64,000 nt of DNA, from the NCBI GenBank assembly GCA_016932255.1, contig JAFGDE010000015.1, positions 93,694 through 157,693 on the forward strand, read 5' to 3'. The stretch is from Candidatus Saganbacteria bacterium (GTDB lineage: Bacteria; Margulisbacteria; WOR-1; O2-12-FULL-45-9). Under the pieces are notes generated by a model that searched no databases, was not told where the DNA came from, and worked only from the letters and a program-made list of their open reading frames with translations. Positions 17,781-41,870 of this stretch are shown one piece after another (within the stretch, counting starts at the first letter, position 1; every line of letters starts with the position of its first letter). A program made the translations under genes and the position numbers.

Positions 17781-18692
17781 GTGCAAAATCCGAAATCCTC
17801 AGCCGACGGCGGACAAAATCAGAAAAAAGACCGGATCACTCAGTTCTTAGGCCATCTGAAGACCGAGCGGAACTATTCACCACACACCCTGAGCAACTAC
17901 CAGCGCGACCTGAATTTTCTGCTGGAGTTTATCGGCCAGAGGCAGATTGACCGCTCTGTTGCCCGGGAGTATCTTCTGGCCCTGGAAAAGAAACGCTATT
18001 CCAGGCGCTCCATTGCCAGGAAATTGTCCTCAGCCAGGTCGTTCTTTCGGTTCCTTGCCAGAGAGAAGTTTATAGACCAGAATCCTTTTGAGAATCTGCT
18101 TACGCCAAAACTGCCGAAGAAACTGCCCAATTTCCTCTACCCCGAAGAGCTGACCGGCCTGTTCAATGCGCCTGGCCTGAAGACCGCACAGGGTCTGCGC
18201 GACAGAGCGATCCTTGAGATCCTCTACGGCACAGGCCTGCGCGTGACAGAAATAAAGAGAATGAACCTGGGGGACATTGATTTTGATGAGGGGGAGATCA
18301 AGGTCCTGGGCAAAGGTTCGAAAGAGCGCATAGTCCTGTTCGGCTCTCATGCCCGGCAGGCGCTGCAAAACTACTTCAAACACGGGCGGCCCGAACTGGC
18401 CTTGGGCAAAAAGACCCCGGTCGTATTCCTCAACCGCCGGGGGACGCGGCTGACCACCAGATCGATCGAACGCATGATCAGCCGCTGTGCCGGCCTGGCC
18501 GGACTGAACAAAAAGGTCACTCCGCATACTTTGCGCCATTCCTTTGCCACTCATCTGCTCTCAGGGGGCGCTGACCTGCGTATGGTCCAGGAACTGCTGG
18601 GCCACGTTTCGCTGTCCACAACCCAGGTTTACACCCATATCACCAAGGAACGCCTCAAAGAGGTCTATGATTCAGCCCATCCCAGGGCCTGA
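17781..18692 (+). CDS. xerC: tyrosine recombinase XerC/XerD-like
   Basis: ILYGTGLRVTEI, HTLRHSFATHLLSGGADLRMVQELLGHVSLSTTQVYTHI. Confidence 0.92.
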   Translation: MQNPKSSADGGQNQKKDRITQFLGHLKTERNYSPHTLSNYQRDLNFLLEFIGQRQIDRSVAREYLLALEKKRYSRRSIARKLSSARSFFRFLAREKFIDQNPFENLLTPKLPKKLPNFLYPEELTGLFNAPGLKTAQGLRDRAILEILYGTGLRVTEIKRMNLGDIDFDEGEIKVLGKGSKERIVLFGSHARQALQNYFKHGRPELALGKKTPVVFLNRRGTRLTTRSIERMISRCAGLAGLNKKVTPHTLRHSFATHLLSGGADLRMVQELLGHVSLSTTQVYTHITKERLKEVYDSAHPRA

Positions 18693-36471: not shown

Positions 36472-36973
36472 ATACCTGAACCTTGACGAGCTGCTGGATA
36501 TCACCCGCAGGAAAAAAGATCCTGCCTTTATTCTCATTCTCGACGGTATCGAGGATCCCCATAATTTTGGCGCCATTCTTCGCTCGGCCGAAGCCTCCGG
36601 GGTCCATGGCGTTGTTATCCGCAAGAAACGCCAGGTCCAAGTGACCGAGACCGTGGCCAAGGTCTCAACGGGCGCTGCCGACCTGGTAGCCATCGCCCGG
36701 GTAGCCAACATCGCCGAGACCATCAGTCGCCTGCAGGATGCCGGAATCGTCGTGATAGGTGTTGAAATAGACGGTAAAAGGTTATATAATGAACCTGACC
36801 TGAAACAGCCGACGGCGATCGTCATCGGCAGCGAAGGTTTCGGGATGTCCCGCCTGGTCAAGGAAAGATGCGACGAGATCGTTCGCATCCCGATGCACGG
36901 CGAGATCAACTCGCTTAACGCATCAGTGGCCACGGGCATAATGCTGTACGAAGTGCTCCGACAAAGGAGGTGA
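36464..36973 (+). CDS. SpoU-family rRNA 2'-O-methyltransferase (RlmB-like catalytic domain only)
   Basis: LDGIEDPHNFGAILRSAEASGV, IGSEGFGMS, IPMHGEINSLNASVATGIMLYE. Confidence 0.92.
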   Translation: MPEYLNLDELLDITRRKKDPAFILILDGIEDPHNFGAILRSAEASGVHGVVIRKKRQVQVTETVAKVSTGAADLVAIARVANIAETISRLQDAGIVVIGVEIDGKRLYNEPDLKQPTAIVIGSEGFGMSRLVKERCDEIVRIPMHGEINSLNASVATGIMLYEVLRQRR

Positions 36974-36979
36974 AATGGT

Positions 36980-37105
36980 ATGGCAGAGAAAGTTCTAAAG
37001 TGTGGCATCAAGAAACAGAAAGGTTACCTGTATTTCATTGACAAGAAAGGTGACATTTCTCGCGCTAAGATGGCTCGCGGCAGGAAGAAAAAGAAACGCC
37101 GCTAA
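36980..37105 (+). CDS. small basic hypothetical protein (41 aa): MAEKVLKCGIKKQKGYLYFIDKKGDISRAKMARGRKKKKRR
   Basis: Read directly; strong SD AAAGGAGGT just upstream; too short for the supplied ORF list. Confidence 0.65.
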   Translation: MAEKVLKCGIKKQKGYLYFIDKKGDISRAKMARGRKKKKRR

Positions 37106-37115
37106 TGGTCCTAAT

Positions 37116-37169
37116 GGTTGCGGTTGCGGATCCGTAGAGTCGTTACGGGTCTCGTAACCGCAACCTTTT
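37116..37169 (+). terminator. terminator-like hairpin upstream of tRNA-Tyr
   Basis: GGTTGCGGTT ... AACCGCAACC followed by TTTT. Confidence 0.5.
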
Positions 37170-37223
37170 ATTGGCGCCCTTCCCTCTCCGCTGATGAAGG
37201 AGCAGGCACAGGGCGCTTCGTGC

Positions 37224-37309
37224 GGAGAGGTAGCGAAGTGGTCAAACGCATCTGACTGTAAATCAGACGGCTTACGCCTTCGAAGGTTCAAATCCTTCCC
37301 TCTCCACCA
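37224..37309 (+). tRNA. tRNA-Tyr (anticodon GTA), CCA encoded
   Basis: GGAGAGG acceptor pairs with CCTCTCC; anticodon arm TCTGA-CTGTAAA-TCAGA; long variable arm; T arm GAAGG TTCAAAT CCTTC; discriminator A then CCA. Confidence 0.93.
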
Positions 37310-37367
37310 CCCACTCTTCCTCAAGTACTTCAAACAGACAACAGATCGATCTCTTTTCTGAAAACCT

Positions 37368-37539
37368 GGATTCAAACCCGGGAAAAGATGGGAGGCTCCA
37401 TCGAATCCGCTACAGGCGGATGAGATGGAGGGAAGAAAAACGGAAGTTTTTCTTCCGGGGGATCAGGAAGCGAAGCGACCGTTAAGGGGGCGCAGCCCCC
37501 TTAAGGAGTCAGCCGCAGGCTGACGACGGGTTCTAATCC
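37368..37539. repeat. 172-bp palindromic multi-hairpin element, copy 1 (candidate structured RNA or MITE-like)
   Basis: Ends GGATTCAAACCCG / CGGGTTCTAATCC inverted; four internal hairpins; closely matches 39641..39813. Confidence 0.8.
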
Positions 37540-37550
37540 TTCCCTCTCCA
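37528..37550 (+). repeat. tRNA-Tyr 3'-end-like att site (copy)
   Basis: GGGTTCTAATCCTTCCCTCTCCA vs tRNA TTCAAATCCTTCCCTCTCCA (19/20 over the core). Confidence 0.7.
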
Positions 37551-37751
37551 TTCTCCCTCGCTCTCGCTTCGCTCGTAGCTTCGGAGAATTAACCATTTAT
37601 TATCTCTAGGTTCAAATTTATACTACGTAGTAACGCCAAAGGCGGACGAATAAAATGAGGCCGCAAGAGGGTAGTCCCTAGCGAACAGAGTGAGCCGAGG
37701 GGCTTCCTTCTCCATATATTTATCCCCACTTTTGCTACAATTTCACTAATT

Positions 37752-37811
37752 ATGCTAATTTTGGGAGTGGAAACTTCGTGCGATCAACAAATCCCCACAC
37801 CAACTTATTAA
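37752..37811 (+). pseudogene. tsaD: truncated tsaD 5' end (MLILGVETSCD then stop after unrelated residues)
   Basis: Translation MLILGVETSCDQQIPTPTY*; LGVETSCD is the conserved TsaD/Kae1 N-terminus. Confidence 0.65.
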
Positions 37812-37983
37812 GCAAGCTATCATTTACTGATTGGGTATTCTTTTAATAAAGAAAGACTCTTCTTTTACTAACAACCATTATCAACAAGTTGGTGCGGGGA
37901 CAAACACACCAGGAGATTTTTGGTTTAAAAGCACTACATTTGATCTTGCGGCAACTGGTAACAGTGTTTTGTGTTAGAACTTT

Positions 37984-38751
37984 TTATCCTTTGTTCTCCT
38001 GGATTAATTCCACAAAGTCACTTCTTCTATATTGTAAAGCGTGACCAATATCATTTGCAGTGGCAAGTTGTTCCGCTGAATATTCTTTTATACTAATCAC
38101 TTCTTCGCCGCTGCCACTAAGCTGAAAAGCTTCGATTTCTTCAGGCGTTACTTTTATTGTAAACAAAGTAAAGAAAAGAGAAAAGCCTTTCTTTGGCATA
38201 TGGAATTGTGTTCTGGGAATAAGACGATCCGGATCAATGTCAGCACCAAGCTCTTCGCTAATTTCCCTCTTAGCAGTGATTTCGGCCATCTCATAAGTTA
38301 TTTTCCCGGAACTATCCCTGGCATCAGCTAGATCTTGGGCATTCATCGATCCAGAAGACAGAGCAAAGACCCCTTTCATATCCTGGGCACCTTTACCTCT
38401 TTCAAATAAGACCAGGTTACCACTTTCCGAATTTATCATGGCAATGAGGGCAACGGCGAATACGCCGCCCAAGCTTCTTTCAGGTTTTGGCACAACCCCT
38501 TCGATGACGCCATTTTCATCAACCTTAATAAGCAATTCATTTTTAAACCATCCTGGAAATTTAGCGTCCAAAATCTGAAATCTTTGAGCCCGAGTTGTTT
38601 TCAATAACTTTTCATAAATTGTATCCAGCCTGCCTCCAGGTAAACTAGTGAACTGGCGAAGTTTTTTGCTGGTTCCTTCTGGAAGTAATTTCATGGCTCT
38701 ATGGGTATTAACATAAACAAATTTCACAATAGATGAAACAGTCCCACTCAT
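37984..38751 (-). CDS. Nudix-like hydrolase (degenerate Nudix box)
   Basis: E-x7-REISEELGA matches the core of GX5EX7REUXEEXGU; AT-rich context. Confidence 0.6.
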   Translation of the reverse strand: MSGTVSSIVKFVYVNTHRAMKLLPEGTSKKLRQFTSLPGGRLDTIYEKLLKTTRAQRFQILDAKFPGWFKNELLIKVDENGVIEGVVPKPERSLGGVFAVALIAMINSESGNLVLFERGKGAQDMKGVFALSSGSMNAQDLADARDSSGKITYEMAEITAKREISEELGADIDPDRLIPRTQFHMPKKGFSLFFTLFTIKVTPEEIEAFQLSGSGEEVISIKEYSAEQLATANDIGHALQYRRSDFVELIQENKG

Positions 38752-38907
38752 TATTATTCCCTCCTAGCTTCTGCTATATAAAATTTGATGGGTTTCACTC
38801 CCCACCATATGGACATAGGCTCAGGCTTCGCCTTCGCGCTGACCCCACCTATGTCCAGACATATATCTTTCGACACATTTTGGCAAAATTTCATTTTATT
38901 TGTAACT

Positions 38908-39024
38908 ATTCAGGTCCTTTTAGTGTCTTTGCGTCTTAGCGGCAAATAAAAATAGCCGCAAAGGCGTTAAGGCGCAAAGTTTCGCAAAGGGATCCATAAG
39001 GACAGAAGTACTCGAGACCTGAAT
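38908..39024. repeat. inverted short-period (8-bp) repeat element
   Basis: ATTCAGGTC..GACCTGAAT flanks; CTTTGCGTCTTAGCGGC vs GCCGCAAAGGCGTTAAGGCGCAAAG arms. Confidence 0.6.
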
Positions 39025-39139
39025 ATTTACCCTTTTCTTATAATTATTGGAAATGATCTGGAACATGGTATACCCAAGGATTTAACAAAATCATTTTATA
39101 AAGGTAGTATACTTTCTTTATGAATATAGGAGTATTGCT

Positions 39140-39199
39140 GTGCTTATACTAAGTATCGAAACTTCATGCGATTCAAGAACACATCAGCGATTTTTTTAG
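39140..39199 (+). pseudogene. tsaD: second truncated tsaD 5' end (MLILSIETSCD..., GTG start)
   Basis: Translation MLILSIETSCDSRTHQRFF*; diverges right after the same Asp codon as copy at 37752. Confidence 0.6.
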
Positions 39200-39556
39200 C
39201 TTAATCACAGGATATTTTGATTTGGGAAGAGAATAAAGAATAAAAAGGCACATCGAAAAGTGGCATTTAATTCGAAAGAGGCATAGAAGTCTCTATATTG
39301 GATTCCGAGAGCGGCGAGCCTTGCCTGCCGGCAGGCGGGGCCGCCTCCGGCCCGCTGCGCGACCCTGCGGCGGAAGATCAGTTTTCGTTGGAGGGGAAAG
39401 ATGCGGCGACTTTTCGGCACCTAGCGGCGCCTCAAAGTCGCCGCTCCAACGCAATGGTTTGCGGTAAAAATAAAATGGCTCGAGCCTGTGCCTCGGATTT
39501 TTATAGGCACAGGATCAGGCACAGGAGAAGGAACCCCGAGATGATTGAGGAACTAC

Positions 39557-39583
39557 AGGTTCTAATCCTTCCCTCTCCACCAC
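39557..39583 (+). repeat. tRNA-Tyr 3'-end-like att site including CCA (copy)
   Basis: TTCTAATCCTTCCCTCTCCACCAC vs tRNA TTCAAATCCTTCCCTCTCCACCAC (23/24). Confidence 0.75.
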
Positions 39584-39640
39584 TAACTCTCCTGTTGATC
39601 ATTATCCCAAACAATTAATCAGGTCTTACCTGACCATCAA

Positions 39641-39813
39641 GATTCGAACCCGGGAAAAGATGGGAGGCTCCGCCGAGTCCTGAGCTTGTCGAAGGACGAG
39701 GTGGAGGGAAGAAAAACAGTAGTTTTTCTTCCGGGGGATCAGGGAGCAGAGCGACCGTTAAGGGGGCATAGCCCCCTTAAGGAGTCCGCCGCAGGCAGCC
39801 GAGGGTTAGAATC
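39641..39813. repeat. 172/173-bp palindromic multi-hairpin element, copy 2
   Basis: GATTCGAACCC / GGGTTAGAATC ends; same internal hairpin order as copy 1. Confidence 0.8.
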
Positions 39814-39858
39814 CTTGCCTGACAGCAGTCAAAGCAGACAGAAAAAGTTCAATAGAGT

Positions 39859-40593
39859 CTAAGCCCCAACATCCTGAACAAGAATAATTGAAGTGGTTAT
39901 GTACCGATGCTGAGGTCCACCGCCTCTACCACAATCACCATTTGTAAGATCATACCTACGGTATTTGCCTTTTTCTACCGTTTCTGTCCAACAGTACATC
40001 CCACGTCCTGGTATTAAGCCTTTAACTTGTTCGAGTTCCGTTAGGGTTGGAACCCTGAATTTCCCGCCGGACATAGCACTTAACCGGTTAGCAAATTGCC
40101 TAGCATCAAGTAAACTGACACGAGAAATCTCATGCCCTGACTCTGAACGAGAAAGGAGTTCCTGGAGTTCTTTTGCACCATCACCTTTTATTTCAACTCC
40201 CTTCATAACCTCCCTAAACAATCCAATTGTGACCAAATCATTCATAATGCTTACCTCGTCAGAAATAGGAATCATTCCAGGGAGTTCTATTGTAAACTCC
40301 CGAGCAGCGGCTGCTTGAGAACTCTTATCAATTTCTGCTGCTAGCGCATCAATTTGCCCCACGCTCTTTCCAATCATAGAAGCTGCATTTAACTCAACAC
40401 CAAGGGGCGTAAAGAACCTCACGTCAATATCTTTTACAGCCGAAAACTCCTCGAACTTTCTGATCACGTCTATCGCCCTAGTTCCACATTCATTTCTCCC
40501 TCTGACCTCTATCGCCAAAGCTCTTCCGCGATAATTTACATCCCTTGACACTTGTTGGGCCACTGTTAACCTTCTTGCTCCTGTAATTACCAC
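39859..40593 (-). CDS. hypothetical protein with FGE/SUMF1-like (C-type-lectin-fold) C-terminus
   Basis: SLLDARQFANRLSAMSGGKFRVPTLTELEQVKG...MYCWTETVEKGKYRRYDL...RYITTSIILVQD. Confidence 0.5.
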   Translation of the reverse strand: MVITGARRLTVAQQVSRDVNYRGRALAIEVRGRNECGTRAIDVIRKFEEFSAVKDIDVRFFTPLGVELNAASMIGKSVGQIDALAAEIDKSSQAAAAREFTIELPGMIPISDEVSIMNDLVTIGLFREVMKGVEIKGDGAKELQELLSRSESGHEISRVSLLDARQFANRLSAMSGGKFRVPTLTELEQVKGLIPGRGMYCWTETVEKGKYRRYDLTNGDCGRGGGPQHRYITTSIILVQDVGA

Positions 40594-40747
40594 TTTTCAT
40601 CTACCTCCTAATAGGATATGTTCTATTGAACCATAATGAAACATTTACCAAACATATACCGCAGTATTTTTTGCAAATTTCATAATTTTAAAAATATTTA
40701 ACTTTATTAAATTGTTTATCGCCATTATATTGTGGTTCAGAAGGCGC

Positions 40748-40776
40748 AAAGGACTAATCCTTCTCTCTCCACCACC
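40748..40776 (+). repeat. degenerate tRNA-Tyr 3'-end-like att site at distal edge of island
   Basis: AAAGGACTAATCCTTCTCTCTCCACCACC. Confidence 0.6.
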
Positions 40777-40817
40777 ATCTTTAAACCCCGCCCCCCTTCA
40801 TATATAATGCTTACACC

Positions 40818-41870
40818 ATGGCCCAACATCTTGATTACGGCTTTGATCACTACAAAAAAGGCCTGCATCTTAAAAAATCGAGCCTGACGCCTTGCCGGGT
40901 CATTGCCCAGTACAATTATATTTATGACCTGGCCGCACCGCATGGAGTGGTCTCAGGCGAATGCTCCGGCAAACTGCTCTATGCCAATGAACTATTGCCG
41001 GTAGTCGGCGATTGGGTCCTGGCCGAGGCAATGAACGACCTGGCGATCATCCATGAGATCCTGCCCCGCAAGAGCGCGATCTCGCGCAAAGCCGCGGGCC
41101 GCGCGGTCAGCGAACAGGTGCTGGCCGCTAATCTTGACGCCTTGGGCATAGTTACCGCCCTGGACAATAACTACAACCGCAACCGGGTCGAGCGCTTCAT
41201 TGCCTTAGCGCTGCAGAACAATATCGAACCAATCCTGATCTTCAATAAAACGGATGTTTGTCCGGACCTGGAAAAGACCAAAGAAGAAGTGGCCCGGCAC
41301 TTTAACAGTTATCGCTCATATTTCATCAGCCTGGTCAGCCGGGAAGGCTTACCCCTGCTGCAGAAAGAGGTCCTGGTCCCCCATCAAACGATCGCCCTGG
41401 TCGGCTCTTCCGGCGTGGGCAAATCGACCCTGATCAATTATCTGCTAAAGGAAGAGGTTATCCCGACCAACGCGGTCAGGCAAAAAGACCAGCGGGGACG
41501 GCACACTACGACCAGCCGCAATCTTTATCTGCTCAAGAACAAGGCCATGGTCATTGATAATCCAGGTATCAGGGAATTGGGCCTGTGGCAGGCGGACAAA
41601 GGCCTGGCCCGCGTTTTTTCAGAACTTGAGCAGCTCGCTGCTCAATGCCGCTACCCTGACTGCCAGCATCTTTCAGAGCCCGGCTGTGCCGTGCTGAAAG
41701 CAGTAGCCTCAGGCGAGCTGGCTCAAGAGCAATATGATAACTATATCAAACTGCGCAAAGAGAACGAGTTCCTGAAAAGAAAAACCGATAAAAGCCAGGC
41801 CGCAAATACTAAGAAACGCTGGAAAAGCATCTCAAAAGAGATCAAGAGGATCTATAAGAACAAACACTAG
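40818..41870 (+). CDS. rsgA: ribosome small-subunit-dependent GTPase A
   Basis: ALVGSSGVGKSTLINYLL, VIDNPGIRELGLW, CRYPDCQHLSEPGCAV; circularly permuted GTPase order. Confidence 0.95.
   Translation: MAQHLDYGFDHYKKGLHLKKSSLTPCRVIAQYNYIYDLAAPHGVVSGECSGKLLYANELLPVVGDWVLAEAMNDLAIIHEILPRKSAISRKAAGRAVSEQVLAANLDALGIVTALDNNYNRNRVERFIALALQNNIEPILIFNKTDVCPDLEKTKEEVARHFNSYRSYFISLVSREGLPLLQKEVLVPHQTIALVGSSGVGKSTLINYLLKEEVIPTNAVRQKDQRGRHTTTSRNLYLLKNKAMVIDNPGIRELGLWQADKGLARVFSELEQLAAQCRYPDCQHLSEPGCAVLKAVASGELAQEQYDNYIKLRKENEFLKRKTDKSQAANTKKRWKSISKEIKRIYKNKH

Follow-up and report, generated by a model that had tools for sequence, protein, structure and literature searches.

Serial copies of the tRNA-Tyr 3' end in a WOR-1 genome mark a probable decayed composite island

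We analysed the 3.4 kb between the tRNA-Tyr gene and rsgA in a 64,000-nucleotide stretch (the window) of contig JAFGDE010000015.1 from Candidatus Saganbacteria, a member of the class candidate division WOR-1. This region, which holds serial copies of the tRNA 3' end, is very probably a decayed composite island. Two elements were identified in it, a structured repeat present twice (element A) and the orphan end of a large-serine-recombinase element (element E). They account for most of the island, which therefore appears to be a composite built by serial insertion.

Elements recombining with tRNA 3' ends would have landed one after another, each insertion leaving an intact tRNA beside the newest element and displacing the older copy of the 3' end. 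The newest element would adjoin the tRNA and the copy at 40748 would be the oldest, genes having been lost later. At least two kinds of elements would have contributed, namely A, twice, and a large-serine-recombinase element that has kept its putative P'-like end E (39225-39500) and lost its gene. The two minus-strand genes of the island would be passengers. We infer this order of events, as well as tyrosine-type recombination at the T-loop as the source of the long 3'-end copies, and the present immobility of the island.

The tRNA-Tyr locus and the copies of its 3' end

The target, the 3'-end copies and the two elements are as follows.

37224-37309, plus strand: intact tRNA-Tyr (GTA) with encoded CCA, the integration target (ARAGORN; Rfam RF00005, 67.8 bits)
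37352-37529, plus strand: element A copy 1, structured non-coding element of ~180 bp (repeat finder; covariance model R1, 126 bits; RNA fold z = -5.0)
37531-37550, plus strand: tRNA-Tyr 3'-end copy without CCA, closing element A copy 1 (16/16 core)
37653-37723, plus strand: short hairpin unit ending in the degenerate 3'-end copy CTTCCTTCTCCA at 37703-37714 (blastn)
39225-39500, minus strand: element E, orphan end of a large-serine-recombinase element; the core CCATTTT marks its outer edge (sequence matches to G021, G010 and G007)
39560-39583, plus strand: tRNA-Tyr 3'-end copy including CCAC (longest identical run 20 nt)
39624-39805, plus strand: element A copy 2 (repeat finder; covariance model R1, 124.7 bits)
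39806-39823, plus strand: decayed 3'-end copy at the end of element A copy 2, at chance level by itself (homologous position in the repeat alignment)
40748-40776, plus strand: farthest and most degenerate tRNA-Tyr 3'-end copy, the island boundary before rsgA (40818) (15/16 core)

The original prediction, made from the sequence alone, had described serial 3'-end copies at this locus, and those at 37531-37550, 39560-39583 and 40748-40776 are real. The 16-mer AATCCTTCCCTCTCCA scored 16, 16 and 15 of 16 at 37531, 39560 and 40748, respectively. The best score was 13 when the 4 kb concerned were shuffled 60 times, and 12 in the 4 kb upstream. A whole-genome search with a 23-mer, allowing up to three mismatches, returned tRNA-Tyr itself and the copy at 39560 alone; the reversed 23-mer gave zero matches in the whole genome. 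The weaker match proposed at 39801-39823 is at chance level by itself (12/16), but it can be retained as a decayed copy by its position, because the second copy of the longer repeat ends there. A core proposed upstream of the tRNA at 37178-37189 is also at chance level (12/16) and was discarded. The degenerate copy CTTCCTTCTCCA at 37703-37714 had been overlooked; its hairpin unit matches a locus near tRNA-Tyr in the genome G008 (blastn, 73% over 71 bp). Decay is greatest in the farthest copy. Across the window's genome, ~37 tRNAs were examined; five of them are followed by a copy of their 3' end that is not a neighbouring tRNA, and upstream matches occur solely where another tRNA lies. We also observed displaced tRNA fragments broken by short palindromes (e.g. 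TCCCGACG...CGTCGGGA) in the T-loop, T-stem or D-loop, at tRNA-Thr (L081) and tRNA-Ala (L085) of the same genome and in two others (L043 in G014, L050 in G016).

In the class, the DNA that follows tRNA-Tyr is a hotspot of integration. Most of the relatives' loci that were fetched have argD and/or rlmB on the upstream side of tRNA-Tyr, and the downstream content differs. Two species of one genus, G010 and G012, carry 1.35 and 2.3 kb of unrelated cargo, respectively, between tRNA-Tyr and maf, with units in a different order. Only one of the two has a 97-bp unit ending in CTTCCCTCTCCA directly after tRNA-Tyr; the other lacks it, its tRNA being followed by the same flank. In G020, a 14.3-kb island lies between 32-nt identical copies, and its tyrosine integrase gene ends 33 bp from tRNA-Tyr. 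Several relatives have no extra tRNA-Tyr 3'-end copy. The loci thus vary by presence and absence instead of being identical everywhere. Together with the nesting of the copies and the strongest decay in the farthest, this variation upholds the stepwise accretion that had been postulated. As a separate observation, three consecutive tyrosine recombinase genes (405, 323 and 306 amino acids) in G010 (L128, G010:C1:736209-738765) resemble a recombinase-in-trio element.

A composition scan gave 37-45% GC for the island and 52-58% for its flanks. The island had been described as AT-rich, which holds overall but not uniformly, since two inner stretches (37.3-37.5 kb and 39.25-39.75 kb) reach 49-54% GC. 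They correspond to elements A and E.

Element E and the large serine recombinases

Element E had also been overlooked. Its part 39225-39486 is 84% identical over 262 bp to G021 (E=2.8e-77); identity is 80% to G010 and 75% to G007, where the match is at tRNA-Tyr. It matches both ends, which are inverted, of ~2.4-kb large-serine-recombinase segments located at tRNA-Ile (G021), tRNA-Lys (G010) and tRNA-Tyr (G007). G007 belongs to the window's own family, and its E-type copy at tRNA-Tyr is a recombinase-bearing one. Further E copies abut tRNA-Val in two genomes, tRNA-Ile in G012, and tRNA-Leu and tRNA-Met in the window's own genome. Beyond the inverted E lies a conserved outer motif, GAATAGTGTTGGGTATAATCAGAG ... 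GGGTCGAG, followed by the core CCATTTT. This motif also marks the far end of the islands, and in G019 it directly precedes tRNA-Ala. A 16-nt search for 3'-end copies on the far side of the serine-recombinase islands was positive in G024 only. E would correspond to the P' half of attP (the attachment site of the element) and the outer motif to its P half. The E of the window is truncated on its inner side and has no conserved outer motif.

The proteins flanked by E harbour Resolvase, Recombinase and zinc-ribbon domains. Eight serine recombinases form a clade (100/100), with genes at tRNA-Ile (two), tRNA-Lys, tRNA-Tyr, tRNA-Val, tRNA-Glu-ttc, tRNA-Glu-ctc and transfer-messenger RNA (tmRNA). In seven of the eight, G007 being the exception, the open frame extends into the tRNA or tmRNA, which is encoded on the other strand. 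More broadly, ten serine recombinase genes with nine different targets end inside or run through an opposite-strand tRNA or tmRNA (in G006, G010, G019, G021, G024, G030 and G003; loci L111, L116, L118, L119, L124, L114, L057, L121, L122 and L125). Seven of these ten and the G007 gene beside tRNA-Tyr make up the clade.

Two side observations concern the arrangement of such segments. At three loci (L155, L154 and L148) a serine recombinase gene lies between inverted E copies, and its direction in G007 is opposite to that in G021 and G010. This suggests an invertible segment, as inversion between such sites would give. tRNA-Ile and tRNA-Ala are normally neighbours in the ribosomal RNA spacer; serine-recombinase segments of ~11 kb lie between them in G019 (L150/L151, G019:C7) and in G021 (L154, G021:C12).

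There is no integrase inside the island, as had been noted, and the assembly holds two Xer-type recombinases and no other; a search of this genome with PF00239 gave no matches. The recombinase at 17781-18692 is XerC (TIGR02224, 349 bits), in line with the housekeeping role proposed for it. The starting premise that islands of this kind belong to tyrosine recombinases describes part of the picture, but serine recombinases are the more frequent occupants of tRNA ends in this class. The further proposal of a cassette array mobilized in trans is not established, in that one portion of the island derives from a serine-recombinase element, of which the gene was lost and an end remains. Moreover, the same genome has another serine-recombinase element with both ends at its tRNA-Met and its interior absent from the assembly. 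The two ends are found at the end of contig C24 and the start of contig C23, where both break off at the same base of the repeat; another 5.5 kb on is the far-end motif. The position of the recombinase gene falls in the gap between these contigs. At a genome completeness of 90%, the lack of an integrase can therefore be ascribed in part to the assembly.

Element A, a structured repeat at tRNA 3' ends

The ~180-bp element A, likewise missed earlier, occurs twice in the island. Its copies are 81-88% identical according to the repeat finder, and they stand just left of the 3'-end copies at 37531 and 39806. Both defining features of the element were found, i.e. core hairpins with covariation and a tRNA 3'-end copy at the right end. 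Eight pairs of the fold changed on both sides, with 21 double-changed cells versus 6.8 in shuffles, and the signal was destroyed when partners were slid.

Across two classes of the phylum, every right end of the 14 strong loci is a tRNA 3'-end copy, and where a neighbouring tRNA can be seen (Tyr, Glu, Gln, Met, Leu and others) the copy matches it. Further copies are present in the window's genome, at tRNA-Gln and on contig C27, and in G012, G024, G026 and G021; the right ends of these copies are identical to the visible adjacent tRNA over 14-19 nt. The covariance model was built from six copies and detected more strong loci in another class, which had not contributed to it. All five of those examined end in a tRNA 3' end; tRNA-Gln, tRNA-Met and tRNA-Leu are visible upstream, and one more has an apparently intron-bearing tRNA. 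All strong loci lie on the tRNA strand.

The left boundary of A is usually the T-arm of its own tRNA as a reverse complement. The own tRNA ranked first among the tRNAs compared in 7 of 11 loci, the best match being 15 of 15 bases, in G050. In the two copies of the window, the left inverted T-arm fits tRNA-Tyr no better than other tRNAs, and the case for this boundary thus rests on the relatives.

Element A is patchy, tRNA-bound and structured. Strong matches were found in 5 of the 32 genomes of the class, and at a syntenic tRNA-Glu it is present in G012 and absent in G010. It also occurs alone, without genes, at other tRNAs. No recombinase adjoins it at its loci. Its hairpin had no copy in viral contigs, and a GTDB scan gave two matches only, one in WOR-1 and one in a sediment bacterium. 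In G024, tRNA-Glu and an older A that has kept the tRNA-Glu 3' end are set apart by a serine-recombinase island, so that the layering of insertions can be seen directly.

We tentatively raise the possibility that A is a minimal, protein-free mobile element of ~180 bp, restricted to tRNA 3' ends in at least two classes, whose ends are rewritten for each target tRNA. The right boundary would be the 3' end of the target, and the left one the inverted T-arm of the same tRNA. Such rewriting would imply that the target is copied, e.g. by templated or single-strand insertion, rather than simply recombined with a fixed attP.

Other observations were made around A and its target tRNAs. In G021 (L092) and G039 (L189), tRNA 3' halves missed by ARAGORN follow apparent group I intron ends, both with element A. 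In G012, the real tRNA-Glu is preceded by three tandem tRNA-Glu pseudogenes (L058, G012:C58, reverse strand 711-1040), all of which are truncated at the T-loop and have a palindrome replacing the anticodon arm.

Cargo, alternative origins and known systems

The two minus-strand genes noted initially are the sole convincing genes of the island.

37984-38751, minus strand: cargo gene 1, 255-amino-acid Nudix-like protein (Pfam NUDIX, PHROG MutT/NUDIX)
39859-40593, minus strand: cargo gene 2, 244-amino-acid protein (family in 12 of 79 genomes of the phylum)

The product of gene 1 scored 19.6 bits with Pfam NUDIX, slightly under the 21.1 cut-off, and 9.6e-7 with PHROG MutT/NUDIX; it has no homologue among the 79 genomes of the phylum. 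The gene 2 family, present in 12 of them and in some with several copies, is conserved over the C-terminal ~140 residues (window and L097-L107). Single-sequence structure models of both proteins were poor (predicted local distance difference test scores of 38 and 42). PADLOC returned weak matches only, and an Rfam search of the island only tRNA near threshold.

That the island is a living array of integrase-less cassettes, or cis-mobilizable elements (CIMEs), still moved or shuffled by recombinases acting in trans, seems unlikely to us. The nested copies with a run of 20 identical nucleotides, the different unit order in G010 and G012, and the serine-recombinase element ends at tRNA-Met and tRNA-Leu of the same genome are compatible with it. 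Nevertheless, the distal copies are degenerate, the truncated E has lost its outer motif, and the assembly has no recombinase gene beyond Xer. We give similarly little weight to the view of A as a non-mobile host RNA made by readthrough of tRNA genes, like the rtT RNA of Escherichia coli tyrT. Its conserved, covarying multi-hairpin fold and its constant location on the tRNA strand would suit such an RNA, but its patchiness, the different tRNA targets between genomes, its presence or absence at one tRNA-Glu within a genus and the lack of an Rfam RtT match argue against it.

Two other origins are highly improbable. Short tandem-type partial copies at tRNA-Val(GAC) and tRNA-Ala(CGC) of the same genome give some precedent for chance or tandem-duplicated T-arm-like sequence of non-mobile origin. 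This explanation is already contradicted by copy scores well beyond shuffles and by the homology of the inserted segments to elements at other tRNAs. A gene followed by a hairpin-rich site occurs here twice, with both genes on the same strand, which would suit an array of integron-like cassettes with attC sites derived from tRNA, but this origin too can practically be dismissed. The recombinase of the window, XerC, scored 142.6 bits against the 265-bit cut-off of TIGR02249, and no integron integrase was found. The GTTRRRY core is not kept, as the ends read GTTCTAA, GTTAGAA and GTGAGA in the alignment inspected by eye, no attC model having been run, and A stands alone without genes at other tRNAs.

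Some points weigh against a decayed composite island. Neither an excised form nor strain-level loss was seen for the window's own cassettes. The copies vary in extent, with or without CCA and with the T-arm intact or not, so that a single uniform mechanism does not fit all of them. Finally, G003 and G029 have relatives of cargo gene 2 within ~2 kb of their tRNA-Tyr but no detectable 3'-end copies there, and this gene is thus perhaps an old neighbour and not an import.

Repeats known as rtT in the E. coli tyrT operon are ~180-bp structured units that follow tRNA-Tyr and include the tRNA 3' end. Tycheposons are tRNA-bound cargo elements carrying a tyrosine recombinase. Element A resembles the rtT repeats (Bosl and Kersten 1991, as cited in PMC2965389) in size, structure and position after tRNA-Tyr with a tRNA 3' end, but it occurs at many tRNAs, is patchy and has no sequence or covariance-model match to them; a cmscan of 36900-41000 for the RtT RNA (RF00391) gave none up to E=5. 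Like tycheposons, which are mentioned in PMC10872708, the island is tRNA-targeted cargo, but it contains no tyrosine recombinase.

Genomic islands and CIMEs have been described as accreting in tandem at the 3' ends of tRNA genes (Pavlovic 2004, Bellanger 2011, reviewed in PMC5704250), and accretion of islands, integrase-less ones included, is established (PMC5704250, PMC3146451). The window represents a small, decayed example of it. As in the accreted islands of that review, units are separated by tRNA 3'-end copies, some without integrase and transfer genes. The copies at 37309, 39560 and 40748 are in keeping with the definition of CIMEs, i.e. flanking attachment sites kept, integrase and transfer genes lost. 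In contrast, the units of the window measure only 0.2-2 kb, show heavy decay and have a structured non-coding element interspersed among them. Like Islander-type islands (PMC4383910), the locus has a regenerated intact tRNA and displaced 3' fragments, but these are several and nested, with no integrase within. In Dehalococcoides, the ssrA islands use the serine integrase DsiB, and 15 of them have no integration module (PMC3146451). The serine-recombinase genes of WOR-1 similarly run with their 3' ends into the targeted tRNA or tmRNA. Unlike DsiB islands, these elements use many tRNAs and not ssrA only, and several have an inverted second copy of their tRNA-side end. The end represented by E abuts tRNA 3' ends elsewhere (Ile, Lys, Val, Tyr, Leu and Met), although in the window it is a remnant without a serine recombinase gene. 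What is unusual here is element A, together with the serine-recombinase elements that have inverted ends; their novelty is provisional, because the literature covered consists of open papers.

These analyses turn an odd repeat pattern into a traceable history, in which one tRNA 3' end of an uncultured lineage was reused by unrelated elements. They also provide a testable case of a protein-free structured element whose ends match the adjoining tRNA. Lastly, the clade of eight serine recombinases with seven different tRNA or tmRNA targets bears on how integrases switch targets, and on tools that insert DNA at tRNA genes.

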